In this document: positions 2,784 through 14,377 of the stretch, one piece after another
How positions within the stretch are numbered: the stretch's first letter is position 1
Layout of the letters: the number at the start of each line of letters is the position of its first letter
NCBI RefSeq assembly: GCF_000820845.2
Contig: NZ_CBXV010000002.1
Location: forward strand, 310,001 to 374,000
Reading direction: 5' to 3'
From: Pyrinomonas methylaliphatogenes
GTDB taxonomy: Bacteria; Acidobacteriota; Blastocatellia; Pyrinomonadales; Pyrinomonadaceae
DNA length: 64,000 nucleotides
Program-made: the position numbers and the translations under genes
The notes under the pieces: model-generated
The model's database searches: none
The model's input: only the letters and a program-made list of their open reading frames with translations
What the model was told of the DNA's origin: nothing

Positions 2784-3497
2784 TCACAAGCGTCGGATGC
2801 GAATCTTTCGAAAATAGACCTCCTCGCCATGATGCTGCAGCGCGATGTGTCCCTCTCTCGCCTTGGCGAAATGGGGCATATCTTTGAACTTGCTCTGCGC
2901 GATCAACCTCTGCAGTTCGGGGCTGCCAAGCCGATACTCGACTATCTTCCGACCGTTCAACCAATGCTCGACGTGCCCATCCTTGACGATCAGACGAATC
3001 TTGTTGTACTGCCCGACCGGCATTAGGGCCTTGTCAGCCGAAGGCGCGATCAAATCGTAGAGCGCTCCGGCAGAGGTTTTGGGGTTCTTCCCATCAGGAT
3101 GCCTCTCGTCATCGAGGATTTGCATCTCTGGACCGGTGCGCCACGAATCCGGCTCGTCCTCCGTCACCAGATAGATGATGCCGGAATTTCCTCCGGGCGA
3201 GACGCGCCATTCGCATTCGAACTCGAAGTTCCTGAACTTCTCCTTGGTGATCAGGTCGACGCGATCCCCGCCGACGATGGTTTTCAAGGCGCCGTCCTCG
3301 ATGGTCCACCCACCGGTGGGGAAAGAGTCGCGGCGATACCCGCGCCAAGCGTCGGTCGATTTGCCGTCGAACAGGACGATCCAACCGCTTCCGCGCCCGC
3401 GCCCCTCGCTGCGGCGCTTCTTCTGCGCGTAGCCGTGCGCTTCGACCGAGCAAAGGATGAAAACGGCAGTCAACAGCAATCCAATTCCTCTTCTCAT
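2784..3497 (-). CDS. Secreted DUF1080 protein (3-keto-disaccharide hydrolase family)
   Basis: PF06439, also called the 3-keto-disaccharide hydrolase domain, forms a jelly-roll related to glucanases and acts on C3-oxidised glycosides. The 237-residue protein starts at the ATG at 3497, with AGAGAGGGG before it. It has a signal peptide (residues 1 to about 24, ending near HGYAQ) and then the family core: WIVLFDGKSTDAWRG, GGNSGIIYLV, GPEMQILDDERHPDG and GALYDLIAPS. An open frame upstream to 3785 runs inside the transporter gene and was not used. It is the last gene of the minus-strand sugar locus. Secretion suggests action in the periplasm or outside the cell. Confidence 0.88.
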   Translation of the reverse strand: MRRGIGLLLTAVFILCSVEAHGYAQKKRRSEGRGRGSGWIVLFDGKSTDAWRGYRRDSFPTGGWTIEDGALKTIVGGDRVDLITKEKFRNFEFECEWRVSPGGNSGIIYLVTEDEPDSWRTGPEMQILDDERHPDGKNPKTSAGALYDLIAPSADKALMPVGQYNKIRLIVKDGHVEHWLNGRKIVEYRLGSPELQRLIAQSKFKDMPHFAKAREGHIALQHHGEEVYFRKIRIRRL

Positions 3498-3547
3498 TTT
3501 CCCCTCTCTGTCTCGAAGATCGATTCGATGATGGACCGCGACGAAGC

Positions 3548-4921
3548 TCATGCGCCGCCGGCGGCGCGCGCTTCTTCTCGCGCCAGCGCCGTTTCGCCCG
3601 CGGCCAAGCGCCGCCGCTCGCGCAAAGCGAGCAAAACGTGGAGCACGGCCATGGTGATCGCCGCAGCGACGACGACGAACAACCCGGCGCGCAGATTGCC
3701 CGTTCCCTCGCCGAGCGCATCGGAGACGTAACCGACGGCGGGCGGGATCAGCAGCAGTCCGGCAAAACCGACGCCCATGACCCAACTCATCGCCGTGCCA
3801 GCGATGCGCGGCGCGATCATGGAAGCCAATCCGACCGACGTCGGAAAGATCGGCCCCATGCCGAAACCGGCGAGGATCAAACCCGCACGCACCATCGCAG
3901 GTTTGCTCGCCGTAAAGGCGATGATCAGCGCGACCGAAGTGAAGATGCTGGCGGCGACGATCAGCCAGAAGCTATTGACGCGCAGCACGCCGAGCAGAAA
4001 ACTCGACACCAAACGTCCGAAGAGCAGCGCGAACGCAAAGAACGACAGCGTTCGCAGCGCATAGGTGGCAACCGCCACGCCCTCGCGGCTCTGCTCGAAG
4101 AAGCGCGTCTGTTCTTCGGGCGAACCTTGCGCGATGATTCGCAGGCTCTCCGCGTTCAAGCCGGAATTGGCGAGGATCTGACCATCGCGCTGCATGAAGG
4201 TGACGACCCACTTGCCGACCGCCACTTCGGCGCCGACGTACATGAAAAGCGCGATGGCTAGCAACCAGAAGCTTCCGTTGCTGAGCAGTGAACGTACGTC
4301 TCCGGCCGCCGATCCGCTCTCGTGCCCGATGGTCGGGTAGCGCGGGAAGCTAGCCGCAACGAGCAGCAGCACGGTCAAACCGGCCAGCGTCCAGAAGACC
4401 ATCTGCACGCCGCCCTGTTGCTGGATGCGCTGGACCACCAGCGGCAGCGCCGCCAATCCCAGCCCGAAACAGATGTCGAGCAGATTGAGCGCAGCATTGC
4501 GCCACGACTCGGCGACGTCGGCCACCAGCGCGTGGCCCGCGGCGACGATGGCGTTGGCTCCCATGCCGAGCACGAGCGAGCAGAGGAAGATGGGTAACAA
4601 GGCCGCTTCCGGCTCGACGCGCGTGACGACGAGCGCGAACCCAACCATCGATAGCAACACCAAGACGGAGCCGAGCGCGAGCGCGATCTTGCGCCCGAGC
4701 CGGTCCATGACGGGGCCGCTCACGATGTAGGCGACCACCGCCCCGATGGCGTTGATCAGCAGAAAGGTGCCGACGTCACTATCGGAAGGCAAGTACTGTC
4801 CGCGCTCCAGCGTCGGCAACACCGACCCCGGCAACGCTGCCAGCAGGCCGTAGAGAAAGATGCCGAAAAAAGCGACGACCATGAGAAAACGCGCGCTGAT
4901 TCTGTTGACAGTTTCGCTCAC
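3548..4921 (-). CDS. MFS transporter
   Basis: This 457-residue protein has about 12 hydrophobic helices and the major-facilitator motif A in the loop after helix 2 (GPVMDRLGRKIAL). The start is a GTG at 4921 preceded by GAGGAAG. A soluble segment around residues 235-275 separates the two halves. The substrate cannot be read from sequence. Its place between the dehydrogenase small subunit and DUF1080 suggests uptake of a sugar or a ketosugar cleavage product (inference). The 208 bp upstream hold no gene I can see. Confidence 0.88.
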   Translation of the reverse strand: MSETVNRISARFLMVVAFFGIFLYGLLAALPGSVLPTLERGQYLPSDSDVGTFLLINAIGAVVAYIVSGPVMDRLGRKIALALGSVLVLLSMVGFALVVTRVEPEAALLPIFLCSLVLGMGANAIVAAGHALVADVAESWRNAALNLLDICFGLGLAALPLVVQRIQQQGGVQMVFWTLAGLTVLLLVAASFPRYPTIGHESGSAAGDVRSLLSNGSFWLLAIALFMYVGAEVAVGKWVVTFMQRDGQILANSGLNAESLRIIAQGSPEEQTRFFEQSREGVAVATYALRTLSFFAFALLFGRLVSSFLLGVLRVNSFWLIVAASIFTSVALIIAFTASKPAMVRAGLILAGFGMGPIFPTSVGLASMIAPRIAGTAMSWVMGVGFAGLLLIPPAVGYVSDALGEGTGNLRAGLFVVVAAAITMAVLHVLLALRERRRLAAGETALAREEARAAGGA

Positions 4922-5129
4922 CTTCCTCGTCTCCTCTCTTCGTCGTTCGAGCTAATCTGGGATAGGCCGCCGTTTCAGCTCTTCGCTTCGCGCAGATCCG
5001 GTGCAAACCTGCGCGCCGTTTCTTCAACGACGGCGCTCGTCGCAAAGTCAGTGGCAGCGTCTCGCCGCGCCCGGCGAGCCTCGTCTTCAGCCGGCTATCC
5101 GCCGCCGCACTGACACGCGCCCGGCACGC

Positions 5130-5792
5130 TTATTCGATCTTCAGACCCAAAGCTTTCGCCTCGGCGCAACCCAGAAATTCCTTCTGGTAACGGTTGCCTT
5201 GGTACTGCAGATCCTGATGAATGCCGATCTCGGACGTGTAGTAGCCATCGATCGTCAGCGTCTTGATGGCGCGGAAGAAGCGCTCTTCCAGAGTCTGCTC
5301 GGCAGCGGGCTTGAACTCGTTTTTAGCTAACTCCTTGAGCAGTTCGATCTGTTGCGCTAATCGTAGATCGGCAAACCGCTCGTTGAAACGTTTGGTTGCC
5401 AAGCGATCGATCGCGACAAGGCCGTCGCGCCACAGGCGCTTCGTCTCTTCGTTGGCGACGCTCACCATCAAGTCGATGAACGCGGGCACTTTGGCTTCCA
5501 CCGCGCCGGGCGAGTGGTCGTCCGTCGGGATGATCAGGTCCGAGATGGCCGTGATCGTGCGCATCTCTTCTGCATTGAAGAAGAGCGGCTTGGATGGCAA
5601 CGGCGCGGGTGGCACTCCCGCCGCATAGCTGAACGGATTGGCGACCTGCGCTTGCGCGTTGGCCGGATTGTCGTAGATCGAGATGGTGGTTGCCGCCGCC
5701 GCGCTCATCGCCAACACGCGCAGCACGCGCCGCCGTTCGAGATCGACATCGTCGCGCTTGTCCACTGCTTCGTTGGTGAACTTCTCAGTCAT
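5130..5792 (-). CDS. Gluconate 2-dehydrogenase subunit 3-like protein (small subunit of a GMC dehydrogenase), Tat signal
   Basis: The 220-residue protein carries a twin-arginine-like leader (ERRRVLRVLAMSAAA, about residues 19-33) followed by a PF13618-type domain (FNAEEMRTITAISDLIIPTD at about 72-91, and GYYTSEIGIHQDLQYQGN near the end). Family members are the small subunits of periplasmic FAD-GMC dehydrogenases such as glucoside 3-dehydrogenase. Their Tat signal escorts the folded flavoprotein subunit across the membrane. Here the GMC gene lies two genes upstream and lacks its own signal, which fits co-export. The 3' end faces the MFS gene 208 bp away. Confidence 0.87.
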   Translation of the reverse strand: MTEKFTNEAVDKRDDVDLERRRVLRVLAMSAAAATTISIYDNPANAQAQVANPFSYAAGVPPAPLPSKPLFFNAEEMRTITAISDLIIPTDDHSPGAVEAKVPAFIDLMVSVANEETKRLWRDGLVAIDRLATKRFNERFADLRLAQQIELLKELAKNEFKPAAEQTLEERFFRAIKTLTIDGYYTSEIGIHQDLQYQGNRYQKEFLGCAEAKALGLKIE

Positions 5793-5817
5793 CTTTTGTG
5801 TTCCTCGGCCTTCGTTC

Positions 5818-6060
5818 CTAAAGTTTAGGGGCGAAGCGACGGAGAAAGTCGCGCCGCGACGCCTTTGGCTCGTTGATCACGCGCACCTCGGAGCAACATT
5901 CCGCCGCGATGCGCCGCAAATCATCGAGCCACTCCGGCGGGATCAAACAGGTTCCGTCGGGAAGTTGACGGAGCGTTCGCGCTGGATAAGCGCTCTCCCA
6001 CTCGACGAACACCCCCTGCCGATAAACCTCATCGAGTCCAATGACGGCGACGCGCACCAT
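5818..6060 (-). CDS. Small hypothetical protein in the sugar-oxidation locus
   Basis: This 80-residue soluble protein with no signal peptide starts MVRVAVIGLDEVYRQG and contains a CC pair (residues 55-56) and the basic end RRDFLRRFAPKL. AAAGG precedes the ATG. It lies 25 bp before the Tat-exported small subunit and 76 bp after the secreted unknown protein, all on one strand, so it is probably in the same transcript. I recognise no domain. Its size and position would fit an assembly or chaperone factor for the dehydrogenase, but that is speculation. Confidence 0.55.
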   Translation of the reverse strand: MVRVAVIGLDEVYRQGVFVEWESAYPARTLRQLPDGTCLIPPEWLDDLRRIAAECCSEVRVINEPKASRRDFLRRFAPKL

Positions 6061-6136
6061 CGCTCTTCAACCTTTGCCGCCGAATGAGCCGCGATTGAAA
6101 GAGACGTGTTGACTGGAAGTCGGACGTGCGGCTCTT

Positions 6137-7123
6137 TCAACGCGGCTCGGCGGACGAGGCTCGCGCGAGAAGTTGGTTCAATCGCGCAAGCTCCTCGTTA
6201 AGTCGTTCGCCCTCTCCCGCTTGCATCGCGCGTATCACACGACACATCGTTTGGTTGATCTCCTCGCCGCGCTTGTTGTCGCGCGACGGGACCATCACGC
6301 CGAGCTGATAGGTCGGCTCGGCGGCCCGCCTTCTTCCGCCGCCCCGCGCCGTGCGGGCTGGCCAGCCTTCCGGCAGGCGAAAGCGAAGGAAGAGGATCTC
6401 GCAACCGGTGGTCGCGCCGAGCCGCGCGCCGGCGACGGCAGCCGTCTGCACGGGCGGCGCCGTGATCGCTTCGGTCAGCGTCGTGCGCCCGCCCGGTGCG
6501 GTGGGCGTCTGCGCCGTGCGCGCAGTCGATTGCGTGGCCTGCGCTAGCTGGCCCAGTCCCGAAGCGCTTTCCGGATTGGCTGGCGCTTGTCCCGGCGGCT
6601 GCGCGGGATTCTGGCCAGCAGCTGGCGTGGTGGGCGTCACGGGCGCACGCGCAACGGCCTGTTCCTCTTCGGGTGGTCTGTACTTGGCGAGCGTGCCGCT
6701 GAGATCGACCGTCATGCGCACGAACGTGCGCTGGCCGACGACCGGCACGGCTTCGCCTTCCAATTCCAACCGCCCCCGAACGATGCGCGCCCCCGTCAAA
6801 CGCAGATCGAAGAACGGACGATCTTGCGAGTCGCGCACGGCGATGCGGTTGCCCCGCAAACTGCCGGTGATGGCGCGCACCGCCGCGCCCGAATCGTGAA
6901 CTGGCACTGCGCCCGGCGCGCGATGACCGCCGACGGCGATGACCGAACTGTAGGGTCCGGTGGGCGGGTAGTCGTTCGAGCTACGCAGATTCGTGCTGCT
7001 CGCTCTTTCGACGCGCGCCATGCGACCGCGCCGCTGCGCCTGCGCCGGGGCGACGTTGATCGCGGCGACGACCAATGCCACATAGATCCTCAACCAACGC
7101 CTTCTCATCCCTTTTCTCGCCAT
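6137..7123 (-). CDS. Secreted hypothetical protein coupled to the GMC gene
   Basis: The 328-residue protein has a cleavable signal peptide (ends near NVAPAQAQ, residue about 30) and a beta-rich N-terminal part to about residue 155. A low-complexity Pro/Ala/Thr/Gln linker (about 158-235) and a C-terminal domain with two Cys and a helical tail follow. The ATG is 13 bp after the GMC stop, and its GAGGAG ribosome site (7128-7133) nearly touches that stop, so translation is probably coupled. I do not recognise the family. Sitting between large and small dehydrogenase subunits, it may be an electron-transfer scaffold, anchor or substrate-binding partner (inference); it has no haem CxxCH motif. Confidence 0.8.
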   Translation of the reverse strand: MARKGMRRRWLRIYVALVVAAINVAPAQAQRRGRMARVERASSTNLRSSNDYPPTGPYSSVIAVGGHRAPGAVPVHDSGAAVRAITGSLRGNRIAVRDSQDRPFFDLRLTGARIVRGRLELEGEAVPVVGQRTFVRMTVDLSGTLAKYRPPEEEQAVARAPVTPTTPAAGQNPAQPPGQAPANPESASGLGQLAQATQSTARTAQTPTAPGGRTTLTEAITAPPVQTAAVAGARLGATTGCEILFLRFRLPEGWPARTARGGGRRRAAEPTYQLGVMVPSRDNKRGEEINQTMCRVIRAMQAGEGERLNEELARLNQLLARASSAEPR

Positions 7124-7136
7124 CTCGCTCCTCTGT

Positions 7137-8855
7137 CTAGAGACGCCCGGCCCGCAACTCCTCGACGGCGTAATCGCAAGCGCGCGCCGTGATCGCCATG
7201 TAAGTCAACGTCGGATTCTGCGTTCCGATCGAAACGTAGCACGCGCCGTCGGTGACGAAGATATTCGGGATATCATGAGCTTGATTGAACTTGTTGAGCA
7301 CGCTCTTTCGTGGATCGTTCCCCATCCGGGCCGTTCCACACTCGTGAATGCCTTGCCCCGGGATGCTCATCGGTCCGCGACTGATGGTGATCTCTTTAGC
7401 TCCGGCAGCCTCTAGCAGTTCGGCAGCCGTCTCACCCATATCGACCACCATCTTCTTTTCGTTGTCCTTGTATTCGACGTCGATGTGCAGGACTGGGATA
7501 CCGAAAGCATCGACCACGTCCTTGTTAAGGCGCACGTGATTCTCGTAGTAAGGCAAGACCTCGCCGAATCCGCCGAGGCTGATGCCCCACGGATGCTCTT
7601 CGCGCACGCGCCGCTTGAAATCGGCGCCGAAACCGGGAAGCGTCTTGGCATGTTGCCAGAGGGATTGACCGCTGCCGCCCTGATACCCGTACCCGCGCAA
7701 GAAGGGACGATCGCGCCGCTCCAGATTGACGAAGCGCGGGATGTAGATGCCGTTGGGCCGCCCATCCTGCAAGAGTGGTTTGGCAGGCAGATCAGGGAAA
7801 ATTCCCCGCGCTCCGCCGCCCATCAGGTGGTCCATCAAATAATGGCCCAGCACGCCCGACGAGTTGCAAATGCCCTCGGCGCCGTCGAGCGACCGCGAAT
7901 TTAAAAGGATGCGCGTCGATTCCAACGCGCCCGCGCAAAGGAAGATCATTCGCCCGAAGACTTCGCGATGCGCGCGCGTGACGGCATCGACATAATAGAC
8001 GCCCTTGGCTCGGCCCGTGTTGCGATCGAGCACGATGTGGCTGACCACGGCATCGGTGACGAGCGTCGCGCGTCCCGTGCGAAGCGCCGCCGGAAGCGTC
8101 GAATGGAGCGAGCTGAAATAGGAGCCCGTGTGACACCCGGATTCGCACCGCCCGCAGTAATGGCAAGGCTTGCGCGTGCCGAGCGCATCATCGAGCGGCT
8201 TGCGCGTCAGAACGGCGGTCCGCCCGATCGTCACGCGCAAGAACGGATTGCCGATCCTTCTGGCGTACGCTTCGACCCCGCGCTTTAACTTTAGCTCGCC
8301 GCACGTCATCGCCATCGGCGGCAAGAATATCCCGTCGGGCAACTGCGGCAAGTTCTCGCGCATGCCGCTCACGCCGATGAAGCGTTCGACGAGATCGTAG
8401 TAGGGTGCAAGGTCCTTGTATTCGATGGGCCAGTCCTCGCCCCACCCGTCGCGGCTCGCCGCCTTGAAATCGTAATCGGACATGCGGTAAGACTGCCGTC
8501 CCCACATCAGCGTGCGCCCGCCGACCTGTCGCCCGCGAATGTACAAGAACGGACGATCGGGCGGCGTCGTGTACGGATGCTCCAGATCGTTGACGAAAAA
8601 GTGGCTCCCATACTCGTTGCACGCATAGCAACGCGATTGGATCGGCTGCTTGCGTTCGAGCTCTTCGCGATTGCCGAAACCGCGAAAAGGGAGATGGTAC
8701 GGGAAGTAGTGCTGCTTGTAGTCGCGCTTCGGATCGATCTGTGGCCCGGCTTCGAGCACTAGAACATCGAGCCCCTTTTCGGCCAGTTGTTTAGCGGCCC
8801 AACCGCCCGTCGCCCCAGAACCGACGACGATCGCATCATAAACCCGCACACCCAT
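7137..8855 (-). CDS. GMC-family FAD oxidoreductase, large subunit (glucoside 3-dehydrogenase-like)
   Basis: This 572-residue flavoprotein has the ADP-binding GxGxxG (VGSGATGG, Gly12/14/17) and the C-terminal GMC motif with ECGTARMGNDP and ITDGA-like (VTDGACYVS) segments, ending near residue 565. Relatives oxidise sugars or polyols at the FAD and pass electrons to a cytochrome. Unusual features are a CxxCxxCxxxC cluster at Cys231/234/237/241 and a CxxC at 76/79, which suggest an iron-sulfur or metal site. There is no signal peptide, consistent with Tat co-export by the subunit-3 protein at 5130-5792. Substrate specificity for C3 of glycosides is inferred from the neighbours. Confidence 0.9.
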   Translation of the reverse strand: MGVRVYDAIVVGSGATGGWAAKQLAEKGLDVLVLEAGPQIDPKRDYKQHYFPYHLPFRGFGNREELERKQPIQSRCYACNEYGSHFFVNDLEHPYTTPPDRPFLYIRGRQVGGRTLMWGRQSYRMSDYDFKAASRDGWGEDWPIEYKDLAPYYDLVERFIGVSGMRENLPQLPDGIFLPPMAMTCGELKLKRGVEAYARRIGNPFLRVTIGRTAVLTRKPLDDALGTRKPCHYCGRCESGCHTGSYFSSLHSTLPAALRTGRATLVTDAVVSHIVLDRNTGRAKGVYYVDAVTRAHREVFGRMIFLCAGALESTRILLNSRSLDGAEGICNSSGVLGHYLMDHLMGGGARGIFPDLPAKPLLQDGRPNGIYIPRFVNLERRDRPFLRGYGYQGGSGQSLWQHAKTLPGFGADFKRRVREEHPWGISLGGFGEVLPYYENHVRLNKDVVDAFGIPVLHIDVEYKDNEKKMVVDMGETAAELLEAAGAKEITISRGPMSIPGQGIHECGTARMGNDPRKSVLNKFNQAHDIPNIFVTDGACYVSIGTQNPTLTYMAITARACDYAVEELRAGRL

Positions 8856-8871
8856 ATGATGCCCCCACCGT

Positions 8872-8967
8872 ATTGAAGACCGATGCGTCCGCTAGCTCGA
8901 CTAGCTCGCGCAAGAGCGCGGCTCGCTCAGCCCACTTGATTGAAGACCGATGCGTCCGCTAGCTCGA
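8872..8967. repeat. Pair of perfect 29-bp direct repeats upstream of the GMC gene
   Basis: The segment at 8872-8900 is repeated without mismatch at 8939-8967, 67 bp apart. Read on the minus strand each unit can be parsed as TCGAGC, 17 bp, TTCAAT, i.e. the size of one -35/-10 promoter. The copy next to the GMC start ends 17 bp before the ATG. The remaining sequence of the 185-bp gap shows no gene. Confidence 0.8.
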
Positions 8968-9040
8968 AATCTTCATCTCCGCTTCGCAGATTTTGTCGAT
9001 CATCAGAACAATTTCTCCAATCGTCTCCCCGCGTCTAGCT

Positions 9041-10156
9041 TTAAACCCTCTCCCAAACCCTGCTCGCATGCGCCCGCTCGATGGCCGCGAGCACCCGTTG
9101 ATTTCGCAGGCCATCACGGAAATTCGGCTGCGGCAATCTTCCCTCATCGATCGCCTTCAGAAAATCGAGCACCGTGTGCGTAAACGTGTGCTCGTAACCG
9201 ATGATGTGGCCCGGCGGAAACCACGCGGCGATGTATGGATGGTCCGGTTCGGTGACGATCACCTGACGGAAACCGCTGTTGGATCCTTCCTCGATGTAAA
9301 GCTCAAGCTCATTCATCCGTTCGAGGTTGAAGACGAGGCTGCCGCGGCTGCCGTTGATCTCGAAGCGGTTGTAGTTCTTTCTGCCGGTCGCAAAGCGTGA
9401 CGCTTCGATTGTGCCGATGGCGCCGTTTTCGAATCGGCAGAGCGCGAGCGCGGCATCATCCACATCGACCGGGAGGCGTTTTGTCGGATCGTCAGGCGAA
9501 GGGCGCTCTTTGATGAAAGTTTCGAGCAAGCTGGCTACCTCGGTGATTTCGCCGACGAGATAGCGCGCCAGATCGATCGAGTGCGAGGCAATGTCGCCGA
9601 GCGCGCCCGAACCGGCTTTGGCGCGTTCGAGCCGCCACACGCGCGGAAAGTTCGGATCGACGATCCAATCCTGAAGATAGGTCCCGCGGTAGTGGTAGAT
9701 CTGGCCGAGTTCGCCCCGCTCGATCAGCTCTTTGGCAAGCGCGACGGCGGGCGCGCGCCGGTAGTTGTGGCAGACCATGTGCGTGACGCCGGCGCGTTCG
9801 ACCGCCGCGAGCATCCGTTCGGCTTCTGCCAACGTGTTCGCCAAAGGCTTTTCGCATAGGATCGCTTTACCCGCTTCGGCGGCGGCGACGGCGATGTCGT
9901 GGTGCGAATCCCCGGGCGTGCAGATGTCGATGATGTCTATGTCTTTGCGCTCGATCACTTCGCGCCAGTCGGTCGCGTGCTCCTGCCAGCCGTACTTTTC
10001 GGCAGCCTTTCGCACTTCCGTTCCGTTGCGCCCGCAGATGACCTTCATCACGGGTTCGATGGGCACGTCGAAGAATCTCGCCACCTGTCGCCAAGCGTTG
10101 CTATGCGCTTTGCCCATGAAGCGATAGCCGATCATCGCGACGTTCATCCTCTTCAT
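9041..10156 (-). CDS. Gfo/Idh/MocA family NAD(P)-dependent oxidoreductase
   Basis: At 371 residues the protein has the two-domain Gfo/Idh/MocA layout: a Rossmann motif ([14 protein letters not shown], about 9-22), the active-site lysine motif CEKPLA (about 99-104), and a C-terminal alpha/beta domain with [18 protein letters not shown]. Members oxidise or reduce sugars and cyclitols. ThuB of rhizobia and levoglucosan dehydrogenase make 3-keto sugars with the same fold. It follows the TIM-barrel gene by 91 bp on the minus strand. Its likely role is redox interconversion at a sugar carbon, perhaps C3 (inference from family and context). Confidence 0.93.
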
Positions 10157-10247
10157 CTTCGCCCTTCAACCTCGCGCCCGGAGAACATGATCTTTCGCCC
10201 TAAAATCCTCCGCGCTGGAAGCGCAGCGGAGCGAACTGCTCTTTGGA

Positions 10248-11489
10248 TCAGGACCGATAGGGCTCGCGCCCGATGCCTTGAACGGGGATCCCTTGCGCGG
10301 CCAGCACCTCGTGCTGCAAAGCGTACATGCACGCAGCGGCTTCATCTATTTTGCGCGTGAAGGCGATCGAACCCTGCAGGATCGGTCTCAACCGTTCTTT
10401 GTCTTGAATGCGCGCTTTGGGATATTCATGCTCGACAATGAGCGGCGTCCGCTCCACGTCCAGCTCGAGCAGTTCGCGCGCGGCGAGCTGATGGTCCAGC
10501 CAATCGACCGTGCGATTTTGCAAATAAGCGAGCGGGTCGTGGCGCGCTGTGCCCGGCAGTTCATGTTCGGCGATGGCGGTCTGCTTCTTCCACGCGTTGG
10601 CCTGTTCGCGCGGGTCCGCAGAAGGTTTGCCGTCGCGCCAATCGCCGCGCCGCATCGTCTGTCCGCCGTAGCCCCAAGCGGCCAACCCGCGCGCGTTGAT
10701 CATCTGTCCTTTCACATGAAATCCAGCGATGAGGAAGTTGTAACCTTCCTCTTTCAGGTATTGGAAGACCGAGCGCGTATCCTGCCCCATTAAGATCGCG
10801 TGCGACGGATCGTAGTGAATGCGGAACTGATCGCCGACGCCCTCCTCTTCGCAGATCCGATGCAGGATGATCCACGCGCCCGGCGTGTAAGCGATGTTAT
10901 TGTGAAAGTGGTCCATCACGGTCCACCCGGGCATCGGACACTGCTCGACGCGATAGACGAGGCCGCGTTCTTTCGCCGCCCGCAGCAGCGGGATGAAGCT
11001 TTCGCGGAAATCGTCGAGGTTCTGCTCCAAGCTGAGATCGAAGTTGCGCCCGACGAAACCGCAGACGGCGGGCGCGCCGAGCATCACGGCGGCGTCCATC
11101 ACGCGCCGCATGAATTCGTGTTTGCGCGCGCGTATTTGCGGATCAGGGTGAAGCATGTTGTCGAAGTAAGCGACATCGCTCAACTCGATCTTGTTCGCTT
11201 CGAGCGCCCGCCGAACGCGGCGCGCGCGCTCAGCGTTGAACGGCTCGCGCAGGTCGAGCGTGTTGGCGACGGGATCGAGCATCGCCTCGGGCGGAACATC
11301 TGCTTCCGACGGATGAAGCGCCGCCGATAACTGCATTAGATCCACGCCGAGTTCGCGCGCGAACGCGGCCCACTCCTCGATCGCCAGATCGGGATCGCGA
11401 TCGCGCACGTCGCGCGGAGTTAACTCCTGCAAAGCGGCGGTCAATATGCCGACGGGCATGAACTTCGGTTCGAAAGCTTTAACGCTCAT
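10248..11489 (-). CDS. Xylose isomerase-like TIM barrel (sugar phosphate isomerase/epimerase family)
   Basis: This 413-residue cytosolic protein has the AP-endonuclease-2/xylose-isomerase fold: [26 protein letters not shown], then the metal-site strands [11 protein letters not shown] and [11 protein letters not shown], and a late Glu/His segment ([12 protein letters not shown]). Its length exceeds the usual 280-300 because of insertions between 270 and 340. Related enzymes isomerise ketosugars or carry out beta-elimination of 3-keto-glycosides (levoglucosan and C-glycoside pathways). It lies between the ThuA and Gfo/Idh/MocA genes, so a step on an oxidised sugar is likely. Confidence 0.88.
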
Positions 11490-11659
11490 CGCTAATGCGC
11501 CTCACTCGCCGAAAGCGGAACGCGATTCTAGGAGCCGCAAGAAGGTTCGTTTTTCGCAGACGGCGCTGCCCGACTCCGCTTGCGCTCCGCTTTAACTGCC
11601 GCAGCGACTCGACAGCCCCGTGCCAGCGCCGATCGGTTTGTTCGTTCGCTCGACGAATT

Positions 11660-12517
11660 TTACTGCGCGCGCATTCCCCGACACTCGATCAATGCGCTCG
11701 CCCCTCTCCACTGTGGCGCGCTCGCACCGCGCTCTTGTCCGAGCGCCCAGCGAATCCCGCCTTGCAAATGTTGCCGAAACCAATCCGCTTCGATCACCTC
11801 GGCGTGATGGCCGAGCGCTGTATAGAAGACTCTTCCCTTCCCGTACAGGCGATTCCACGCCAACGGGAAATAGCCCGGAACCTTTGATACGGGATCGATG
11901 TCGAGCGCAAGCAGGACGTGAACTTTGCTTCGGTCGAAATTGCAGATCCGGTAGATCTCATCGAAAACGGTAAGCTGCGTGCCCAGATGGCGCGTCGCCG
12001 GATGCGACCGGTCCTCAACGCGCAACGTCACGCTCATCGGCGCATCATGCGCATCGAACTCGCCGCCGAGCATCTCGATGTAAGCTGGGAAGGTGCCCTG
12101 CCGGAACGTATCGCTCGCCGCGTGAATCCCAATGAAGGCGTGGCCTGCGCGAATCCACTGCAAAAACGCCTCGCGATCGGCTAAAGGCAGCACTCCCGAA
12201 GTGTTCGCAAAGATGACGGCATCGTAGCTTTCCAATCCCCGTTTTGTGGTCTTGGCGCGCAACTCTTCATCCGTGCGCGCGAAATCGACGAGCCAGCCAT
12301 TTCGCTGGCCCAGTTCTTCGATCACGCGCTCGGCAACGGCGATCGATTGATGCCTATATCCTTTCGTGACGGTAACGACGAGCAATCGCCTATCGCCTTT
12401 TCTGGGAGCGCTTCGCGCGACACCAGCTAAAGCCGCGCATAAAAGTCCACAGCAGATGATGATCGCCGCCCGAGCGCTAGCTTTAACGAAAGCCGCTCGA
12501 CCGTCAAGGGTGAACAC
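11660..12517 (-). CDS. Exported ThuA-like protein
   Basis: The 285-residue protein has an N-terminal hydrophobic segment (about 16-34) followed by a ThuA fold related to glutamine-amidotransferase-like domains: VTVTKGYRHQS (about 48-58), SYDAVIFANTSGVLP, GHAFIGIHAASDTF and GKGRVFYTALGHH. ThuA proteins are linked with ThuB in use of 3-keto trehalose and sucrose derivatives; their exact reaction is not settled. Secretion agrees with action on sugars in the periplasm. It is the first gene of the minus-strand series. The tail after residue 268 is low in family similarity. Confidence 0.88.
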   Translation of the reverse strand: MFTLDGRAAFVKASARAAIIICCGLLCAALAGVARSAPRKGDRRLLVVTVTKGYRHQSIAVAERVIEELGQRNGWLVDFARTDEELRAKTTKRGLESYDAVIFANTSGVLPLADREAFLQWIRAGHAFIGIHAASDTFRQGTFPAYIEMLGGEFDAHDAPMSVTLRVEDRSHPATRHLGTQLTVFDEIYRICNFDRSKVHVLLALDIDPVSKVPGYFPLAWNRLYGKGRVFYTALGHHAEVIEADWFRQHLQGGIRWALGQERGASAPQWRGASALIECRGMRAQ

Positions 12518-12634
12518 GCCGACTCCTCGGGAGCAGACTCAAAAAACTATGCTGTGCTTCGGTCGAATCCCTGTGTGGCGAGGCGGATTATAAATACCGC
12601 TTTCCCGCAGTGTCAACGGGATTCTTTCGAGCGG

Positions 12635-12730
12635 GCTTGGCGGTCATGTTCGCTCGTTTACGCGAACTAGGCTATCGTCCGATTTTTTCCGAAACGAGCT
12701 TGGCGGCCATGCTCTCGTTAGACTATAGTC
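12635..12730 (+). promoter_or_regulatory. Duplicated promoter-like segment before the secreted TIM-barrel gene
   Basis: The 14-mer GCTTGGCGGTCATG at 12635-12648 recurs with one change at 12698-12711, 63 bp later, with further similarity after it. The downstream copy reads TTGGCG (12701-12706), 18 bp, TATAGT, which is a plausible promoter for the gene at 12772. The upstream copy lacks a good -10. Confidence 0.45.
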
Positions 12731-12771
12731 GCGCAGCGACACTCGAGAGAAAACGGATCAGGAGAGACGGC

Positions 12772-13683
12772 ATGTCACGTCACATTCTCAACCGGCGAGA
12801 ATGGGGCAAGATCGTTCTCGGCAGCTTAGCTTCCGCCCTTATCCCGTTCGACGCCACAGCCGACGTAGTCAAAATCGGCCCGATCGATTCGCGTTTCCGC
12901 GGCGTGCTGCTCGGCGTGCAAAGTTACAGTTTTCGCGACTTGAATCTCGATGACGCGCGACAAGCGATGCGCGAAATAGGGATCGGGAGTTGTGAACTTT
13001 GGGCCGGGCATCTCGAACCTCGCGAACTGCGCGATGATACGGATGCGCGTGCGCGCGAAGAGCTCAGGCGGTGGCGTTTGCGCGCCCCGCTGAGTCTATT
13101 TTACGGCGTGCGCGAGCGCTTCGATCGCGCTGGCATTACGATCAACGCATACAACTACACGATGCGCGATGATTTCACCGACGAAGAGATCGAGGTCGGC
13201 TTTCGTCAAGCGCGCGCTTTAGGGACGCGCATCTTGACCTCATCTTCCAATGTCAGCACGGCGCAGCGCATAGATCGAGTTGCGCGCCGCTATCGCATGT
13301 ATGTCGGCCTGCACAACCACTCGCGCATCTCGCCGAATGAGATCGCCACTCCAGAGAGCTTCCAGCGCGCGATGCGTGGGACGAGCAACATCCGCATCAA
13401 TCTAGATGTCGGCCATTTCGTCGCCGCCGGTTTCGATCCTGTGGCTTTCATTCGACGGAACCATGCGCGCATCGTGACGCTACACATTAAGGATCGAAAG
13501 CGGGATCAAGGGCCGCCCGTCCCCTTCGGAACGGGCGACACGCCGCTTCGCGCGATCCTCCGCCTGCTGCGCGACAATGGGTACAAAATCCCAGCGAACA
13601 TAGAGTATGAGTACGCCGGCGCAGACACGCGCTTAGAGGTGAAGCGCTGCTTCGAATATTGCAAGCGAATCTTGCTCTCCTGA
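12772..13683 (+). CDS. Exported xylose isomerase-like TIM barrel
   Basis: The 303-residue protein begins at the ATG at 12772, chosen because AGGAG lies at 12760-12764; the open frame reaches back to 12610 without a ribosome site. A twin-arginine leader (LNRREWGKIVLGSLASAL) is followed by a TIM barrel with GVQSYSFRDLN, VGLHNHSRIS, NIRINLDVGHF, RIVTLHIKDR and NIEYEY, the metal-ligand series of the AP-endonuclease-2 family. Folded Tat export suits a metalloenzyme working in the periplasm. Together with the convergent DUF1080 gene it suggests extracytoplasmic processing of a keto-sugar (inference). Confidence 0.87.
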   Translation: MSRHILNRREWGKIVLGSLASALIPFDATADVVKIGPIDSRFRGVLLGVQSYSFRDLNLDDARQAMREIGIGSCELWAGHLEPRELRDDTDARAREELRRWRLRAPLSLFYGVRERFDRAGITINAYNYTMRDDFTDEEIEVGFRQARALGTRILTSSSNVSTAQRIDRVARRYRMYVGLHNHSRISPNEIATPESFQRAMRGTSNIRINLDVGHFVAAGFDPVAFIRRNHARIVTLHIKDRKRDQGPPVPFGTGDTPLRAILRLLRDNGYKIPANIEYEYAGADTRLEVKRCFEYCKRILLS

Positions 13684-13696
13684 TGCCGAAAGCGCC

Positions 13697-14377
13697 CTAA
13701 TCTCCCGAGCGAAGCGGGCGCACGCTTACCTCTTTGAAGTAAACGTGCGTCGGTTTGCCGCGCGCGTAATCGTCGTGATTTTGCAAACCGATGTAACCGA
13801 CGATCGGACGGATATTGCCGCGTTCCGGCTCCCATTCTCTGGCGCGCGGCGGAACGGGCTGTTTGGGATCGAATCTGGTAACCTCGACTCCATTCAAGCG
13901 AACGATTATCCGCTCGCCTGCGAGCGTGATCTCCAGCGTGTTCCATTCGCCCACCGGCTTTGAAGGGACGCTGCGCGACGGAGCCAGCGAATAGATCGCG
14001 CCGGTGCGATGATAAGCATCCTGTCGATCGAGGATCTGGACCTCATAACCGTGGTGCACGGCGAACCATTCGTCTTTCGGACGATCCGCGATGCGCACGA
14101 AGACGCCCGAGTTTGCCGCCGGATCGTTCGTCTTATAGACGACGCGAATGACGCAATTGCCGAATTTCTCGCGCGTGTACCACAAAAGCCCCATCCCGCC
14201 TTCCGTCCGCAAAAGGCCGCCTTCAACGACGAACTTTCCCGAACCGACATGCTCCCAACCGGCGAGATCGCGTCCGTTGAACAACTGGCGCCAGGTCGAA
14301 TCAGATCGCGCGGCTTGCGCATAGCCGAAAGGCGAAAGCAGAGCGATCGAGATCAACAAGCGAAAGATGGCGCTCAT
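13697..14377 (-). CDS. Second secreted DUF1080 protein (3-keto-disaccharide hydrolase family)
   Basis: This 226-residue protein has a signal peptide (MSAIFRLLISIALLSPFGYA) and a PF06439 jelly roll: WRQLFNGRDLAGWEHVGSG, NSGVFVRIADRP, GYEVQILDRQDAYHRTGAIY and VGYIGLQNHDD. It is clearly diverged from the DUF1080 protein at 2784-3497, so it is probably not a recent duplicate. It converges on the Tat-exported TIM-barrel gene with 13 bp between their ends. Confidence 0.88.
   Translation of the reverse strand: MSAIFRLLISIALLSPFGYAQAARSDSTWRQLFNGRDLAGWEHVGSGKFVVEGGLLRTEGGMGLLWYTREKFGNCVIRVVYKTNDPAANSGVFVRIADRPKDEWFAVHHGYEVQILDRQDAYHRTGAIYSLAPSRSVPSKPVGEWNTLEITLAGERIIVRLNGVEVTRFDPKQPVPPRAREWEPERGNIRPIVGYIGLQNHDDYARGKPTHVYFKEVSVRPLRSGD

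Follow-up and report, generated by a model that had tools for sequence, protein, structure and literature searches.

Two conserved, undescribed protein families probably associated with a GMC/SUB3 dehydrogenase in Pyrinomonas methylaliphatogenes K22 and its class

Glucose sensing makes use of GMC/SUB3 dehydrogenases, which also belong to a 3-keto sugar route. For glucose dehydrogenase, the available part of the description indicates that a [3Fe-4S] cluster receives electrons from the flavin, and that another cysteine is disulfide-linked to the small subunit, which is exported through Tat as a hitch-hiker (PMC9727119). In other bacteria, a family of 3-keto-disaccharide hydrolases is found near LacABC-type lactose 3-dehydrogenases, according to the accessible part of the report (PMC9007349). 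Another Tat-exported enzyme, NapA, has a small partner: NapD, which has 87 residues and a ferredoxin-type fold, uses the face of its sheet to bind the Tat leader of NapA (PMC3712460) and, in Campylobacter, served its own enzyme only (PMC4148689), as stated in the portions of these papers that were at hand. In the published accounts, as far as their text was accessible, we found no explanation of how a leaderless flavin/Fe-S enzyme is checked before its export.

The locus described here belongs to the thermophilic soil bacterium Pyrinomonas methylaliphatogenes K22, whose genome comprises 3,788,560 bases in 16 contigs; the window, i.e., the whole stretch of DNA that was analysed, covers 64,000 nt. 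Four genes of the minus strand follow each other in the order GMC, U328, U80 and SUB3 (Table 1), with intergenic gaps of 13 nt (GMC-U328), 76 nt (U328-U80) and 25 nt (U80-SUB3). A preliminary description of this DNA had reported two unrecognised ORFs between the GMC and small-subunit genes, the 328-residue product being secreted and starting 13 bp after the GMC stop with a nearly touching ribosome site, and the 80-residue one being encoded just ahead of a Tat-exported small subunit. All of this was borne out. The coordinates are exact, ACAGAGGAGCGAG separates the GMC stop codon TAG from the ATG of U328, with the ribosome site almost abutting the stop, U328 has a hydrophobic leader that ends in AQAQ, and the N-terminus of SUB3 is Tat-like (ERRRVLRVL followed by an Ala-rich stretch). 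Neither unrecognised protein matches a Pfam family (nothing at E<=1) or an NCBIfam family. Pfam searches with eight U80 proteins returned nothing apart from one chance match, NCBIfam gave chance-level matches alone for U328 (0.15 and 0.39), and no description of these helper families was found in the open-licence literature. A promoter and terminator scan of positions 5000-9200 remained at chance level, with nothing within the gene gaps.

U80 and U328 are genes and not chance ORFs, since their dN/dS ratios between K22 and a second Pyrinomonas genome are 0.058 and 0.43, respectively (GMC, 0.043; SUB3, 0.148). U328 evolves fast and U80 is under strong purifying selection. Synonymous distances to the same relative (locus L044; window positions 5130-8252) fall along the operon, from 0.586 in GMC to 0.192 in U80, 0.115 in U328 and 0.067 in SUB3. 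This drop suggests recent recombination across the U328-U80-SUB3 part.

Table 1. Location of the features discussed. Coordinates are those of the window, except for the one-haem proteins, which are given on the loci of relatives.
Feature	Location	Strand	Description
GMC	7137..8855	(-)	Catalytic GMC oxidoreductase, 572 aa, without leader; Pfam PF05199 (1.6e-20) and PF00732 (1.1e-17)
GMC cysteines C231, C234, C237, C241	8133..8165	(-)	C-x2-C-x2-C-x3-C; probable [3Fe-4S] ligands plus one
U328	6137..7123	(-)	328 aa, secreted; member of a GMC-partner family; conserved C241 and C294
Strong hairpin	6070..6152	(-)	Spans the U328 end and the U328-U80 gap; RNA fold
U80	5818..6060	(-)	80 aa, leaderless; predicted ferredoxin-like fold
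SUB3	5130..5792	(-)	Small subunit, gluconate 2-dehydrogenase subunit 3 type; Pfam PF13618 (3.2e-35)
Twin-arginine motif in SUB3	5718..5735	(-)	R20 and R21, invariant across the alignment
Hydrolase pair, alike in name calls	2784-3551; 13697-14377		PF06439 for the first; name call alone for the second
One-haem c-type protein, L046	9783-10103		
One-haem c-type protein, L094	3283-3615		
One-haem c-type protein, L057	778-1086		
One-haem c-type protein, L059	1302-1607		

In a sequence search of solved structures, the closest relatives of GMC were subunits of fructose dehydrogenase (1.4e-41) and FAD-glucose dehydrogenase (7.7e-41). Its C231, C237 and C241 align with the fructose dehydrogenase cysteines of the [3Fe-4S] cluster region, and the four-cysteine motif is present in 41 of the 46 GMC ORFs examined. 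Because GMC resembles these two dehydrogenases and has the cluster cysteines, the enzyme is probably a dehydrogenase requiring an acceptor. By analogy with glucose dehydrogenase, GMC C234 and SUB3 C209, the latter invariant in the alignment, could form a similar disulfide. As for the reaction, it is the gene neighbourhood alone that suggests oxidation of a glycoside at the sugar C3. At this locus, an enzyme of a known kind is accompanied by two conserved, undescribed families of probable helpers.

A profile of the eight U80 proteins detected this family in 23 of the 162 genomes of the class, at 24 places; of 396 genomes sampled from the phylum, 7 contained it, each of them from this same class. 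Within the fetched flanks, SUB3 lies downstream of U80 on the same strand at 18 of the 24 places, nine of them with a small protein containing one CxxCH encoded in between. Two of the remaining six places stop at a contig edge (L074, L081), two have U80 behind GMC and a U328-family gene (L096, L098), one has it in the same gene cluster beside other cluster genes (L097) and one has it divergent from GMC (L100). SUB3 itself was found in 24/162 class genomes at E<=1e-70, a cut that excludes G039 (profile E 2.3e-12; the tally is 25/162 at 1e-10). With this cut, 22 genomes have both U80 and SUB3, one has only U80 (G126), two have only SUB3 (G050, G161) and 137 have neither; since these genomes are related by descent, the association looks stronger in such counts than it really is. 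Fisher values take related genomes as independent and are not to be taken for probabilities. U80 appears dispensable in some of these systems, since G050 and G161 have SUB3 without detectable U80.

U80 is predicted to be a cytoplasmic and ferredoxin-like protein. Its model (mean pLDDT of 85.9, confident for residues 1-60) has the order E-H-E-H-E followed by a C-terminal helix with a short extra strand, which is ferredoxin-like. This fold type is common, and the fold search gave no outstanding match, the best one (Z 6.8) being to de novo ferredoxin folds. Foldseek returned nothing at E<=0.001 for the U80 model, NapD was not among the matches listed in the structure searches, and a sequence search of solved structures gave no match.

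U328 was initially taken for a narrow family, present in 4 of 40 genomes (its own included) and then in 5 of the 162 class genomes. This view was given up, a wider family being found behind other GMC genes: the genes of 189 to 307 codons located behind a second GMC group are relatives of U328. Comparison of U328 with these leaderless GMC-downstream proteins gave an hhalign probability of 94.8 (E 5.2e-8, 200 columns), earlier profile comparisons being weak (probabilities of 58 and 1.4) until more members were added. The joint family occurs in 22/162 class genomes at 25 places, of which 24 have GMC as the immediate upstream neighbour on the same strand, the 25th being at a contig end, and 20 genomes have both this family and U80. 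Structure prediction, as proposed in the preliminary description, gave a fold for U80 but not for U328, whose model is poor (mean pLDDT of 40) and unfit for a fold search. A sequence search of solved structures with the C region of U328 gave chance matches alone.

The U328 family has two export forms. Each of the five exported members combines a hydrophobic leader with the same pair of cysteines, whereas none of the 12 leaderless members has this pair and ten of them have no cysteine at all, gene starts in relatives coming from a home-made caller or being chosen by hand and some of them being uncertain (e.g. L050). The cysteine pair probably forms a disulfide, and the leader/cysteine split would be expected if one form folds in the oxidising periplasm and the other in the cytoplasm, possibly ahead of export through Tat. 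Furthermore, each form has a GMC clade of its own. Among the 44 GMC proteins of a tree, those partnered with exported U328 make up one group of five rows (support 100/99), and those partnered with leaderless members make up another of 12 rows (100/100), one of which is on a cut contig; the tree leaves out the GMC of L098, which is in two frames, and labels L088 as 'none' though its contig ends at the place of the partner. A 10-row clade and the single row L048, all without a U328-family gene, lie between these groups. Since such partnerless rows separate them, either loss or two gains must be assumed. At L048 (7146-8225; G036), where the GMC belongs to the U328 clade, a gap of ~1 kb behind it contains neither a called gene nor a match to the U328 family; this gap may be read as a loss or as a decayed copy.

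The preliminary description had noted that no acceptor is encoded here and had viewed the two proteins as a possible link to it. Its first point stands for the window, in which none of the 58 called proteins contains CxxCH, and for one cytochrome family genome-wide, but not for relatives, which do have a cytochrome. This family of one-haem c-type proteins, barely detected by Pfam, is found in 28 of the 162 class genomes, ten of them without U80; its gene follows U328 in L046 and L094 and lies between U80 and SUB3 at other loci, and its product is the likely acceptor in these relatives. The family is absent from the K22 genome, where the best match (E 0.159) is a multihaem protein that we take to be part of alternative complex III. 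U80 is tied to SUB3 and not to this cytochrome, since 5 of the 23 U80 genomes lack the latter. That Pyrinomonas keeps U328 and U80 yet lacks the cytochrome of its relatives would agree with one of them being the electron acceptor or a link to it. We nevertheless regard this as very improbable: no CxxCH haem site and no cluster-like cysteine motif was seen in U80 or U328 and, because neither has a haem site, they appear to fill the acceptor gap in no obvious way. Moreover, U328 is apparently no replacement for the cytochrome, because the two are encoded side by side in L046 and L094.

Our main reading, to which we give a probability of about 0.85, is that U80 and U328 are associated with the GMC/SUB3 enzyme, because their neighbourhood and co-occurrence are conserved across the class. 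The preliminary description would have been contradicted by close relatives having intact loci without either gene; the genus mate (the second Pyrinomonas, G001) has instead the same four genes in the order GMC, U328, U80, SUB3. Further away within the class, this order is not kept everywhere: in G161, GMC and SUB3 form a locus without U80 or U328 beside them, a U328-family gene lying elsewhere on the contig. Both families are small and restricted to one class, so that shared ancestry inflates their co-occurrence, and U80 adjoins other cluster genes in L097, as expected if both were mere neighbours that serve a wider sugar-catabolism cluster, e.g. in substrate binding or regulation, instead of the enzyme. 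This seems improbable, since the link persists through rearrangement, the partners staying together in same-strand, divergent and split arrangements, with or without the cytochrome, and since U80 is under strong purifying selection. A reading that is unlikely but carries some weight limits both proteins to assembly: most members of the U328 family would be cytoplasmic chaperones loading flavin or Fe-S into GMC, and the exported form of Pyrinomonas would be a later re-use for a different job. The 12 leaderless members directly behind GMC, one of them (L058) with a 4-nt overlap, and the lack of any cysteine in most of them speak for it. However, the five exported members all hold the same position behind GMC, and the family is apparently homologous over its full length, which points to one function where GMC works.

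We favour the explanation that U80 and U328 are accessory proteins serving an exported, LacABC-like periplasmic GMC/SUB3 glycoside dehydrogenase of this class. Judging from FAD-glucose and fructose dehydrogenases, the leaderless GMC is probably exported in a folded state, carried by SUB3 with its Tat leader. In the cytoplasm, U80 would most likely bind SUB3 or SUB3-GMC and would keep this client away from the Tat pore until it has received its flavin and its Fe-S cluster. U328, which has its own leader, would most likely become a further, non-redox subunit of GMC once in the periplasm. Electrons would leave GMC via the flavin and the probable [3Fe-4S] cluster and would probably pass to the small one-haem cytochrome in relatives, the acceptor in K22 having to be another protein. 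Among the roles first proposed for the two proteins, maturation factor fits U80 best and anchor is possible for U328 as an accessory subunit. Taken together, U80 as a maturation factor and U328 as a GMC subunit have about an even chance of being right. A bolder proposal, which we consider quite doubtful, sees U80 as the first Tat quality-control chaperone dedicated to a hitch-hiking flavin dehydrogenase, with the same fold type as NapD and an independent origin, and the U328 family as a GMC subunit that changed, in one lineage, from leaving together with the enzyme to using a leader of its own, with gain of a disulfide. The two conserved helper families make the checking of a leaderless enzyme directly testable, and the leader/cysteine split of U328 can be viewed as a natural experiment on the export route.

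The hairpin (-46.5 kcal/mol, z -4.18 in the RNA fold of 6055-6160) overlaps the U328 stop codon, fills the U328-U80 gap and has no U-tract. The genus mate retains this hairpin in nearly identical form, and it could give differing levels for the flanking genes. It was rejected as a repeat element, the genome having no second strong copy, and as a known RNA, Rfam giving no match. Around the four genes, Pfam identified an MFS transporter, a 3-keto-disaccharide hydrolase, a Gfo/Idh oxidoreductase and a TIM-barrel protein encoded on the same strand. Two hydrolase genes and the MFS, Gfo/Idh and TIM-barrel genes lie together at 2784-14377, a probable 3-keto-glycoside island.

The enzyme shares with FAD-glucose dehydrogenase, fructose dehydrogenase and LacABC of Caulobacter a GMC catalytic subunit with cysteines in the cluster region and a small subunit with a Tat leader (PF13618 and twin arginine in SUB3). 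With LacABC, it also shares a 3-keto-disaccharide hydrolase encoded nearby, according to the available text (PMC9007349). No gene for the haem c subunit that accompanies enzymes of this type was found here (CxxCH in the window; one cytochrome family genome-wide). In three-subunit FAD dehydrogenases, the accessible part of the description gives this subunit three haems (PMC9727119), whereas relatives of K22 have a one-haem protein and K22 is without it. The available portions of the published descriptions of these dehydrogenases yielded no counterpart of U80 or U328. U80 resembles NapD, as far as the accessible text goes, in being small and cytoplasmic with a ferredoxin-type fold, the last two by prediction for U80 (PMC3712460, PMC4148689), and in having its gene adjoin that of a Tat-exported redox enzyme, as in the E. 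coli gene order. Homology at the sequence level was rejected, the profile comparison with E. coli NapD giving a probability of 0.3 and U80 having no Pfam match. NapD serves a molybdoenzyme, whereas the putative client of U80 is the GMC/SUB3 enzyme. Furthermore, NapD binds the leader via its sheet face in the part of the source at hand (PMC3712460), whereas the invariant residues of U80 are mostly on helices and loops (alignment and model); because of this, U80, if it binds SUB3, may do so differently. Hence, U80 may work like NapD but is not a NapD. Pyranose oxidase and glycoside 3-oxidases have the GMC fold in common with the K22 enzyme (partial match to NCBIfam pyranose_ox, 1.7e-16, 60 bits against a cut-off of 545). 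These oxidases reduce O2, as indicated in the available part of the report (PMC10646112), whereas the K22 GMC has probable cluster cysteines and is accompanied by a small-subunit gene.
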